A DNA stretch of 64,000 bases, from positions 1 through 64,000 of IMG/VR virus record IMGVR_UViG_3300021440_000013; one strand, written 5' to 3'. The translations under genes and the position numbers were made by a program. Below the pieces are notes generated by a model that did not search any database, had not been told where the DNA came from, and saw only the letters and a program-made list of their open reading frames with translations. The stretch is from a virus. This document shows positions 11,436-19,424 of this stretch, piece by piece; position 1 is the stretch's first letter; the number at the start of each line of letters is the position of its first letter.

Positions 11436-11909
11436 TCACGACCCTTTTAAAGAGTCTTTTAACACCTGCTCAGCATTTTCTACCGCCTTCACTTTTCTCT
11501 CATGGACCGTGTCAGTTATTTCACGAAGCATCTTTGTCATATAACACGGCAGATTCAAGAATTCCGTCAGGTTCAACCCCCAGATCTCCTTGTAATTCTT
11601 CTCAGCGTAGTTAATCAAAGAATCATACAGCATTCCACCCTCAGTAAAGTTCTCCGAAGGATGCATCGCTACGCTCGCTAGCGGTCTAGCATCAGAAGGC
11701 TCACGTGGACTCAGGTGGTCGTATATCCCATAGCGTGTTTCATATTGATCGTACATGACGATCTTACTATCCACGCGGTTAAGGGCAGGTAGATTTTCAA
11801 GGGCATGCTCAATCAGATCTCTCGGATCTCGATCTAACCCAAAGGTCAGATCGAGAATAGAGCGCTTTACCGATTGTCGGCTCGTCCAAGACGCTGAGCG
11901 ACTAGGGCG
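11436..11909 (-). CDS. Probable -1 frameshift extension of the upstream 542-aa gene
   Basis: An open frame of 157 codons whose first stretch overlaps the 3' end of the upstream gene in the -1 frame. No ATG, GTG or TTG occurs in this frame until the GTG at 11774, and neither that GTG nor the ATG shortly after has a ribosome-binding site, yet the codons before 11774 read as ordinary protein (…LTFGLDRDPRDLIEHALENL…). The frame is entered exactly at the slippery T_TTT_TTC at 11915-11909. I infer it is translated as a C-terminal extension, giving a fusion of about 686 residues. If not, it is an independent gene from 11774 (112 aa). Function unknown; an assembly chaperone is plausible by analogy with frameshifted lambda gpG/gpGT. 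Confidence 0.65.
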   Translation of the reverse strand, partial: RPSRSASWTSRQSVKRSILDLTFGLDRDPRDLIEHALENLPALNRVDSKIVMYDQYETRYGIYDHLSPREPSDARPLASVAMHPSENFTEGGMLYDSLINYAEKNYKEIWGLNLTEFLNLPCYMTKMLREITDTVHERKVKAVENAEQVLKDSLKGS

Positions 11910-13495
11910 AAAAAAACCTGAAGGATATCGATAGGAATAATCGAAGCGTGCCTCGGGTACTCATCCGAGGGCGCTTGAGGTTTTCCACACACCGGGCAAT
12001 CAAAGGACGGCACACCGATAACAGCGAGTGTCGATTCATTAATGTACTTGATCGTCTCATCCGTAAAGGCTTCACGAATAGAGTCGGTCGCTGAGAGAAC
12101 GCTTAGGACGTTCTCAATGGTTTCTCGGTCAGTGATGAGTTTGATTGAAGCCTCATCACCGCCTTCTTCGTTAAACTGACCGTATTCAATTGAATCCACC
12201 CAGTGAATGTATTGCCGAAGACTGGTGGCTTTACTGACACGGTTGATTTCGTTGTTACGATCTTCAACCGAGGCGTTCATTTCAAGCGCAGCGCTGATAC
12301 TCTCAACGATGCCTCCGATCCAGCGGTGGCCTTGTTCGATGTACTCGGTTATCGTTGGCGTTTTGAGTGTAAACGCCAACTCATGTTTAGTGCCCTTATT
12401 GACCGTGATGCGTCTTTTCTGTGAAAGCTTGAGCTCGTCTTTGTAACGCTTGATCGAATCAAGACTTTTTGAATTGGCAGACATACCCGTCATGTGGGTC
12501 TTTTGCCAATCGGTCAGTGCGGATTCATCGACCCATTGAAGCTTGGTGATGTTGAGGGTTTCTTCAACCACATGGGTGCACTTAGTCGGGTCAACTACGC
12601 AGCCGGTCGAGTAATGAAAACCGCTTGGGTAGTTGGCAGAGAGAAAACCCCAGATAAAGCTGTAGATGTCCTGCGGCGCTACCCAGTTTTTAAGTTCAGA
12701 GAGCGGAAGCTCCTCAGAGCGCACGCTGGTGTTATACACATGGCGCAAGGCGAACTCGAAAACCCGATCGAGCGTGTAAACGATGTTGTTAGATAACGCC
12801 AAGCCGTAGCTGTAGCGACCCATCTTGATCTTGTCTGATGCGATTGCGCGGTTGAGCTCCAGAAGCTCAACCTCCGTAGCGGGCTTAAAGGTTACCCAGA
12901 TACCACTGTTCCAAAGCGGGGTTCTAAAGAGACCCCCCACACCAAGGTGAGAGACGATCTGCAAAAGTGCAGCTTCGCCTTCGATCTCTCTGGTACCCGC
13001 TTCTTTTTTAAAGCTGGGTGCGATACCCCGAAGCTTAGTGCCGTTGTGTTCAACCTGCTGTTTAAAGCTGGCGCCAACCTGCGTAAGACGTGAATTATAG
13101 AAGTTGCCTTCGGGCAAAAAACGCAGGCTCTCATGCATCACGTAAAGCCACTTGCGCTGATTCTTACTGACGACATTATCGACGTTAGGCTGGTTGTTAA
13201 GCCTCGCTTCGATTTCATCCGCCGCTGCCGGAGGAATCATCACCATGTCGGGCGTGCCTTTTTCACGCGCCGAGCTCGTCGGGTAGTCCTGTAGCGCATT
13301 TTCAACGCGATTAAAGCTCTGTAAAGGAACTTCGGGTTTTGTTTCCTGAGACGAGGTTTCTTCAGTGGAAACCTCGTTAGCAGAAACCGGCTCCTTAACC
13401 TCAGGCTCCGCGCCCTTGGCTTCCAGATCACTTACGATCGGCTCACCCGCCTCAACTTCAGGCTCAGTGGACGCACCGTTATTTTCATTACTCAT
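11867..13495 (-). CDS. 542-aa protein with C-terminal Cys pair; zero-frame partner of a -1 frameshift
   Basis: A 542-residue protein with an acidic, low-complexity first ~60 residues and a CPVC pair (500-503) near the end that could bind metal. The start ATG has AAGGA 8 nt upstream and overlaps the end of the preceding (-) gene by 8 nt, so they are translationally coupled. At codons 527-529 (V-F-F) the mRNA reads G_GTT_TTT_TTC, containing the heptamer T_TTT_TTC; a -1 slip enters a long open frame, whereas the zero frame stops 13 codons later. Abundant short and rare long forms are typical of phage tail or baseplate assembly chaperones. Identity is not established from sequence. Confidence 0.75.
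   Translation of the reverse strand: MSNENNGASTEPEVEAGEPIVSDLEAKGAEPEVKEPVSANEVSTEETSSQETKPEVPLQSFNRVENALQDYPTSSAREKGTPDMVMIPPAAADEIEARLNNQPNVDNVVSKNQRKWLYVMHESLRFLPEGNFYNSRLTQVGASFKQQVEHNGTKLRGIAPSFKKEAGTREIEGEAALLQIVSHLGVGGLFRTPLWNSGIWVTFKPATEVELLELNRAIASDKIKMGRYSYGLALSNNIVYTLDRVFEFALRHVYNTSVRSEELPLSELKNWVAPQDIYSFIWGFLSANYPSGFHYSTGCVVDPTKCTHVVEETLNITKLQWVDESALTDWQKTHMTGMSANSKSLDSIKRYKDELKLSQKRRITVNKGTKHELAFTLKTPTITEYIEQGHRWIGGIVESISAALEMNASVEDRNNEINRVSKATSLRQYIHWVDSIEYGQFNEEGGDEASIKLITDRETIENVLSVLSATDSIREAFTDETIKYINESTLAVIGVPSFDCPVCGKPQAPSDEYPRHASIIPIDILQVFFALVAQRLGRADNR
11909..11915 (-). promoter_or_regulatory. Slippery heptamer T_TTT_TTC (candidate -1 programmed frameshift)
   Basis: Seven consecutive T residues on the (-) strand followed by C give T_TTT_TTC in the correct phase of the zero frame. 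Zero-frame translation ends 13 codons later; the -1 frame stays open for 157 codons. Both tRNAs can re-pair after a one-base slip at this type of X_XXY_YYZ site. Confidence 0.6.
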
Positions 13496-18078: not shown

Positions 18079-18226
18079 CTAACACTCACTAGCTGAAACA
18101 CTGTGTTAGTTTTCTTACTAGAACGCTAGCACAGGAGCATGAGTATTTTTTCATACGTAAGAAAACAATGCTGCACGTGTCAGCGGCACGTGCAGCAACC
18201 TCCCTAGGGTCTACATCATTAGGGAG
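18079..18226 (+). repeat. Cluster of four inverted repeats upstream of tnpB
   Basis: Four successive inverted repeats: 18079-18085/18103-18109 (7 bp), 18109-18118/18157-18166 (10 bp), 18169-18179/18187-18197 (11 bp perfect, 7-nt loop, centred on CACGTG arms) and 18200-18206/18220-18226 (7 bp). They fill the otherwise gene-free 285 bp between the operon terminator and tnpB. Subterminal hairpins of this kind mark the ends of IS200/IS605-type elements, but a structured leader RNA or operator would look similar. Confidence 0.55.
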
Positions 18227-18263
18227 TGTAAACTTTTTTACCCTTTACGAAAAGAAGTTTGGT

Positions 18264-19424
18264 ATGGCTAAACCATCTAATCGTATTATCAGAGGTTTTA
18301 AGTATTGTATCCATCCCTCGGAGGAACAAAAGGTAGAGTTAAATTCTATTTTAGAAGACTGCCGACGCATTAGAAACAAAGTCAGCAAAGTCATGCATAC
18401 GTTAATTCCCAGAAATCAAAACTGGGAAGACGTCTTTAAGCTAGAAGATGCACTTAAAGTTGCCCAAGGAATTAAAACCCAGTTCTTTAAAACAACAAGA
18501 GCACCCGCACGTTCACTCACAACAGCCATCGAAATACTTTACCAGCTTCATAAGAAAGCGATTAAGTTGCGTGTTAAGCCGCCAGGCTACAAACACGAAG
18601 AAAGTCACTTGGCGGTTCACTACCCACACGAACTCTATAAGCTCTGTGGCGATCATCTTACACTCTCAGGTATAACGGGCGATATTCGTATAAACCTAAG
18701 CAGACCTATGCCAGATGGTAAAGTTCATAGAGTCGTGGTGAGTCGCGATATCTCTGGAAGGTACTTCATTTCGTTTACGATCTGTTTTGTTAAACAGATC
18801 GAACATGGTGATAAGACCATCGGTCTAGATCTCGGTGTCGATGACCTTGTCACGACGTCTGAAGGGGTTCGCTTCGAAGCTAAACTCAAGGCAACGGATG
18901 TTCAGCTTAAGTTGAACTGGTATTTCGATCTTCTTAGACGCAAGACAGTGATGTCTAGGTCTTGGAAAGCGCTAAAAGAAAAGATCCGCAAATACAAAAC
19001 ATGGGTGATGAATACTCGGATCGAACAGTTCTATGAGATCGCCACTGCTGTTGTAAAATCAGCATCAGCGATTTCGATGGAAAGGCTTAACATCACCAAA
19101 CTTTTGACTCAGCCGCGTCGGGCTTTTCAGATTTCACACTCTGGCTGGAATGATTTGAAACGAATATTGGTTGCTAAAGCCGAAGAAGCACAGATCGTGA
19201 TTGGATTTGTAGGGCAGTATTACCCAAGCACTAAGACGTGTTCACGTTGTGGCTATGTTTTGCCAAAATCACTTCCTCTCACAATTCGTTCATGGCAGTG
19301 TCTTGAGTGCTCTTCAATCCATGATCGCGATGTTAACGCCGCGATAAATATTCGAGACTGTCTTTCGAGCTGGATAAAACGAGGCGTGTATAAAACCCAA
19401 CATAAAGTTGTTCTCTTAAACTAA
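18264..19424 (+). CDS. tnpB: TnpB family RNA-guided nuclease (IS200/IS605- or IS607-type accessory protein)
   Basis: A 386-residue TnpB. Known members are RNA-guided DNA nucleases that promote retention of their transposon. The RuvC nuclease motifs are complete: IGLDLG with D189, SMER with E273, and HDRDVNAA with D356; a four-Cys zinc ribbon is intact (C326, C329, C346, C349). The N-terminal helical/OB region is present, giving full length. I start at ATG 18264 (MAKPSN); the open frame extends to 18168 through the hairpin cluster, which is not coding. No TnpA tyrosine or serine transposase is nearby, so this is a solo TnpB: either a relic that relies on a transposase in trans or a phage homing nuclease. 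Codon use is more AT-rich than in flanking genes, which suggests transfer. Confidence 0.85.
   Translation: MAKPSNRIIRGFKYCIHPSEEQKVELNSILEDCRRIRNKVSKVMHTLIPRNQNWEDVFKLEDALKVAQGIKTQFFKTTRAPARSLTTAIEILYQLHKKAIKLRVKPPGYKHEESHLAVHYPHELYKLCGDHLTLSGITGDIRINLSRPMPDGKVHRVVVSRDISGRYFISFTICFVKQIEHGDKTIGLDLGVDDLVTTSEGVRFEAKLKATDVQLKLNWYFDLLRRKTVMSRSWKALKEKIRKYKTWVMNTRIEQFYEIATAVVKSASAISMERLNITKLLTQPRRAFQISHSGWNDLKRILVAKAEEAQIVIGFVGQYYPSTKTCSRCGYVLPKSLPLTIRSWQCLECSSIHDRDVNAAINIRDCLSSWIKRGVYKTQHKVVLLN

Follow-up and report, generated by a model that had tools for sequence, protein, structure and literature searches.

A candidate programmed −1 ribosomal frameshift in the gp077 gene family of phiKZ-like jumbo phages

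The 542-aa gene encoded on the minus strand of the viral DNA analyzed here and the open frame that follows it appear, judging from sequence comparisons, to constitute a single gene with a programmed −1 ribosomal frameshift (we put the probability at about 0.95). The comparative evidence for such a shift is very strong, and the frameshift reading that had been proposed earlier from the letters of this DNA (hereafter, the original prediction) is supported by the −1 phase found in 79 of 79 loci, the open overlap of the two frames, the slip site and the conservation of the −1 domain. The explanation as a whole, in which the gene gives rise to a short and a long form that would serve as tail assembly chaperones, is also likely.

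The analyzed DNA (the window) covers the initial 64 kb of a virus record with a length of 216,876 bases. Among its products are a major capsid protein of the phiKZ type (PF25620, E = 9.5e-157) and a nuclear shell protein (phrog_4795), and pieces of RNA polymerase are also present; because of these genes, we group the window with phiKZ-like nucleus-forming jumbo phages. The neighbors of the 542-aa gene are genes of the major head protein and of an RNA polymerase subunit. A transposase-like gene is found elsewhere in this phiKZ-like genome, at positions 18168-19424 of the plus strand (phrog_506, E = 1.5e-59). Coordinates of the features considered below are listed in Table 1.

Table 1. Features of the proposed frameshifted gene and its surroundings in the window
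Feature	Coordinates	Strand	Remarks
Preceding gene, 180 aa	13488..14030	(-)	phiKZ gp078-like by position; same direction, 8-nt overlap
Zero-frame gene, short product of 542 aa	11867..13495	(-)	phiKZ gp077 / PhiPA3 gp074 family, phrog_4585
Slip site T_TTT_TTC (U_UUU_UUC)	11909..11915	(-)	zero frame GTT TTT TTC = V-F-F
Dual-coding overlap	11867..11908	(-)	13 zero-frame codons and TAA; −1 frame codes here too
−1 frame domain, 157 codons and stop	11436..11909	(-)	codons 11909-11439, stop 11436-11438; phrog_12109
First NTG of the −1 frame (GTG)	11772..11774	(-)	45 codons past the slip, ~22 past the conserved FG

The minus strand around the slip site reads ...CTT CAG GTT TTT TTC GCC CTA..., with the heptamer in the X_XXY_YYZ phase of the ORF 11867-13495; the position (11915-11909) and phase originally assigned to T_TTT_TTC in the 542-aa gene proved to be exact. 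The same is true of the earlier figures of 13 zero-frame codons after the slip, of 157 open codons in the −1 frame and of 45 codons to its first GTG (11774), while the first ATG is 51 codons in. In the window, ORFs with at least 200 aa contain 63 in-phase X_XXY_YYZ heptamers, and T_TTT_TTC is the sole one at which the −1 frame outlasts the zero frame by a large margin, +144 codons, the runner-up reaching +7 codons.

Relatives comprised 26 annotated phage regions and 70 IMG/VR loci, the latter retrieved with sub-alignment queries (a single-protein query gave no match in IMG/VR). Together with the window, 79 loci were left after near-duplicate removal; they reach down to about 21% identity and are statistically non-independent. 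The same Phe-Phe, located 3′ of a LIPLD-like stretch and CPxC, occupies one alignment column in nearly all relatives. In each of the 79 loci, the −1 frame encodes the second domain and can be followed upstream past the slip site without a stop. Downstream, the −1 run spans 150-203 codons in 78 of 79 loci; the zero-frame remainder is 9-44 codons (median 14) and the median for the +1 frame is 10. The alignment of relatives for the heptamer and the overlap therefore bears out the original prediction, the −1 phase, the open overlap and a U-rich slip site being kept throughout, and no relative among the 79 loci has lost the heptamer while providing its second frame with a proper start.

The same phase is seen at the level of annotated genes: the downstream gene is at phase −1 in 25 of 26 phage records. 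As a control, we used orthologues of the preceding gene; the phases of the gp078→gp077 pair in the same 26 records are 8/9/9, i.e., random. The exception is Pseudomonas phage RVTF4 (locus L027), which is explained by an internal phase break: ~52 codons past the slip, the −1 domain continues in the other frame. This break likely stems either from an error in the record or from a recent mutation.

Codon choice at the slip site deviates strongly from that expected from codon use of the same genes. The codon preceding Phe-Phe has T as its third base in 66 of 78 loci (25.0 expected), with the encoded residue being of at least 10 kinds (V, I, T, A, G, L, Y, S, N and H among them), and the first Phe codon is TTT in 78 of 78 (28.9 expected). 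When 248 aligned columns are ranked by the excess of third-position T, the slip-site codons take ranks 1-3 (z = 12.1, 10.8 and 5.6), and the next column has z = 2.7. The strict T_TTT_TTN is present in 61 of 79 loci. The 18 deviant sites (G/A_TTT_TTY, A_CTT_TTT, T_TTT_ANN and T_TTT_TCC) all still permit re-pairing of the P-site tRNA-Phe one base back. Since the slip variants of loci L041, L042, L055, L058 and L060 (T_TTT_ATT, T_TTT_ATC, T_TTT_ACC and T_TTT_TCC) keep the −1 layout, re-pairing in the P site only is indicated. The five bases after the heptamer are also strongly conserved in relatives, with the consensus A-C/T-C-C-T; they specify Thr/Ile-Leu when read in the zero frame and Tyr-Pro when read in the −1 frame. 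The conservation may reflect either a protein or an RNA constraint.

One can suppose that the two frames are separate genes and that the downstream protein starts by itself at GTG 11774 or later, perhaps via translational coupling, as most records annotate a downstream CDS of its own and in a few relatives an in-frame ATG precedes the conserved region or lies close to it. The conserved part of the −1 domain, however, opens ~20 residues past the slip with 'HV....FG', and this stretch lies upstream of any NTG in many relatives: 48 of 79 loci are without ATG, GTG or TTG from the slip to the Phe that is conserved in the −1 domain, and none of the 79 has, from the slip up to the conserved region, a start preceded by an SD-like site, in line with the earlier statement that the second frame lacks a credible start or ribosome-binding site. 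The first NTG of the −1 frame is as far as codon 136 in locus L038 and codon 85 in L016 (Churi), and L050 is without any ATG. Separate genes would also leave unexplained the excess of T at the slip codons, and the −1 phase of all 79 loci is non-random, with the frame always open back past the slip. We therefore consider independent translation of the second frame extremely unlikely.

Very unlikely, too, is transcriptional slippage, whereby the phage RNA polymerase would add or drop a U on the T-run and the long form would be made from the altered mRNA. Phages related to phiKZ do use their own multi-subunit RNA polymerases and the T-runs are up to 8 bases long, but runs of 5-8 bases are short for slippage. 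Polymerase slippage is disfavored because the runs are mostly of 6-7 bases (7 in 38 loci, 6 in 22, 8 in 12 and 5 in at least 6) and because sites interrupted by A or C (TTTTATT, TTTTACC) retain the −1 arrangement; conservation, moreover, follows the codon phase, X_XXY_YYZ. An error of sequencing or assembly in the homopolymer, such that the gene is really continuous, might come to mind given the 7-T run in the IMG/VR contig. It was rejected, with a negligible residual probability, because the same codon is broken in 79 genomes with differing run lengths, those of EL, PhiPA3, SPN3US and phiKZ included.

In the programmed frameshift that we favor, most ribosomes would read V-F-F and reach the stop after 13 further codons, releasing the short protein. 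A minority would slip back one base on U_UUU_UUC, with tRNA-Phe re-pairing in the P site and, at complete heptamers, in the A site as well; these ribosomes would append the 157-residue, mostly helical domain, yielding the long form. We infer that the short form predominates. In E. coli, U_UUU_UUA and U_UUU_UUU are described as far less shift-prone than A_AAA_AAG (Atkins et al., PMC5009743), and a low yield of the long form is therefore expected. Such a yield would fit a situation in which the short form greatly outnumbers the long one.

The original prediction proposed a check for a downstream RNA structure, and no general one was revealed across the 79 loci: the mean z in 60-nt windows downstream of the slip was −0.56, compared to −0.14 to −0.84 at other offsets, i.e., no excess stability, and consensus folds of two sub-groups of loci contained no covariation. 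Lineage-specific pseudoknots may be present. SD-like stimulators upstream of the slip were detected in 3 of 79 loci, fewer than at control offsets. A phage protein, phiKZ gp014, has been reported to bind host ribosomes in infected cells (PMC11849849).

The short product consists of an acidic disordered N-terminus (approximately residues 1-64) and a folded core, and its AF2 model has a mean pLDDT of 85 and a pTM of 0.83. The CPVC pair, which was earlier regarded as unusual, instead corresponds in the C-terminal alignment to the conserved CPxC of the phiKZ gp077 family. Together with an upstream PCxxDxxKC, CPxC apparently makes up a candidate four-cysteine metal site. The predicted long form (~686 aa) combines the short product with the 157-residue −1 domain, a member of the PhiPA3 gp073 family (phrog_12109). 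The −1 domains of relatives align as a single family that begins shortly past the slip. By AF2, the domain is mostly helical, and its last ~60 residues, which form the C-terminal helices, have pLDDT values of 92-98. A Foldseek search with this domain returned same-family members and weak matches to small uncharacterised phage proteins only.

By analogy, the two forms are probably the tail assembly chaperone pair of phiKZ-like phages. By sequence arrangement, a short form and a longer form share the N-terminal part, as in G/GT pairs. The short form matches a T4-like baseplate hub assembly protein in Foldseek (probability 1.00, E = 3e-3); phrog_150 (baseplate hub) matches 2 of 53 family members (best E = 4.4e-4) and PF12322 matches 1 of 53 (E = 0.0079). 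The DT01 orthologue was labelled T4 gp26-like by its depositors. Profile-profile comparison with T4 gp26/gp51 was non-significant (hhalign probability 23-44%), and solved structures provided no relevant match to these proteins. The gene is not adjacent to that of the tape measure protein: a 2556-aa ORF at about 163866-170867 of the minus strand of the contig (G000:C1; ~164-171 kb) is a relative of the probable tape measure protein of SPN3US, an ORF that we take as gp239 from gene order and size, and the two genes are not adjacent in SPN3US either. Because the matches are remote, the profiles are non-significant and the tape measure gene lies apart, we hold the chaperone role as probable and do not rate it higher. 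The likeness to lambda gpG/gpGT suggested by the original prediction is thus plausible in view of the remote fold and family matches.

It is also conceivable, if rather unlikely, that the frameshift is real and yields not a tail assembly chaperone but, e.g., a baseplate, neck or head assembly factor with two isoforms. The distance from the tape measure gene, the proximity of the major head protein and RNA polymerase subunit genes, the ~540-aa size of the short form and the weak sequence link to T4 gp26/gp51 all agree with such a product, but the remote fold and family matches indicate T4-type hub-assembly proteins, and a short/long layout with a C-terminal helical addition fits chaperones.

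If the two forms are tail assembly chaperones, the short one would coat the tape measure protein and the long one would recruit the tail tube, as for lambda gpG/gpGT. The slip site of lambda is G_GGA_AAG. The gene described here resembles gpG/gpGT and their counterparts in long-tailed phages in that a −1 shift close to the 3′ end of the first ORF would yield two products, one short and one long, and in that the added domain lacks a usable start; it differs in having U_UUU_UUN, a short form of ~540 aa and a location apart from the tape measure gene, with no sequence similarity shown. The lambda gpG protein binds to the tape measure protein, while gpGT, the −1 product made at a low level, brings in the tail tube protein, and both are absent from the virion (PMC5009743). 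G-T frameshifting is described as widely conserved except in T4, and the account of it given by Atkins et al. 2016 makes no mention of phiKZ in the text examined (PMC5009743).

The two chaperone forms of T4-like phages are reported to come from separate genes, gp26/gp51 (Vladimirov et al. 2022, as cited in PMC10885494). Both T4 proteins contain PF12322, and gp51 is longer by a C-terminal extension of about 45 aa. The similarity to our case is that two forms have one common domain and the longer one is C-terminally extended; the end of T4 gp26, CPECG...EFFELL, also resembles CPxC...FF by eye, a resemblance without a test. In contrast, T4 has two genes and does without frameshifting, and the profiles are non-significant. 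Tentatively, all phiKZ-like phages might share a large metal-binding tape-measure chaperone pair that combines lambda-type frameshifting with the T4 gp26/gp51 type of protein, is encoded at a distance from the tape measure gene and relies on U_UUU_UUN without a conserved RNA stimulator, possibly with the help of phage-altered ribosomes.

A −1 frameshift that gives short and long forms of a phage gene product is already known. As far as the literature searched shows, with few subscription papers covered, the present gene family, its spread in phiKZ-like phages, the length of its short product, its separation from the tape measure gene and its consistent misannotation are undescribed; the same literature yielded no paper that names PHIKZ077 or joins a ribosomal frameshift with Chimalliviridae. 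The frameshift reading amends how a conserved gene is annotated throughout a group of jumbo phages that includes phiKZ, in which a domain of 150-200 residues is now absent, truncated or listed as unrelated. It also names the likely tail assembly chaperones of phiKZ-like phages, for which the literature searched contained no description, and a chaperone role, if true, would connect the lambda-type and T4-type solutions. In addition, it provides an example, open to direct tests, of a −1 shift that has no obvious stimulator and would take place in infected cells whose ribosomes are bound by a phage protein.

In GenBank, two genes are annotated instead of one. The orthologues in phiKZ are gp077 and PHIKZ076.4 (phrog_4585 and phrog_12109), and the −1 ORF there comes after a slip site that reads ACT TTT TTT ACT; they differ in that the annotation treats them as two hypothetical genes unrelated to each other and shortens the second to about 81 codons. 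PHIKZ077 and the −1 domain should be annotated as a single frameshifted gene. PHIKZ076.4 as it stands (L115:2322-2564; positions 71442-71684 of phiKZ NC_004629) covers the C-terminal part of the −1 domain only.
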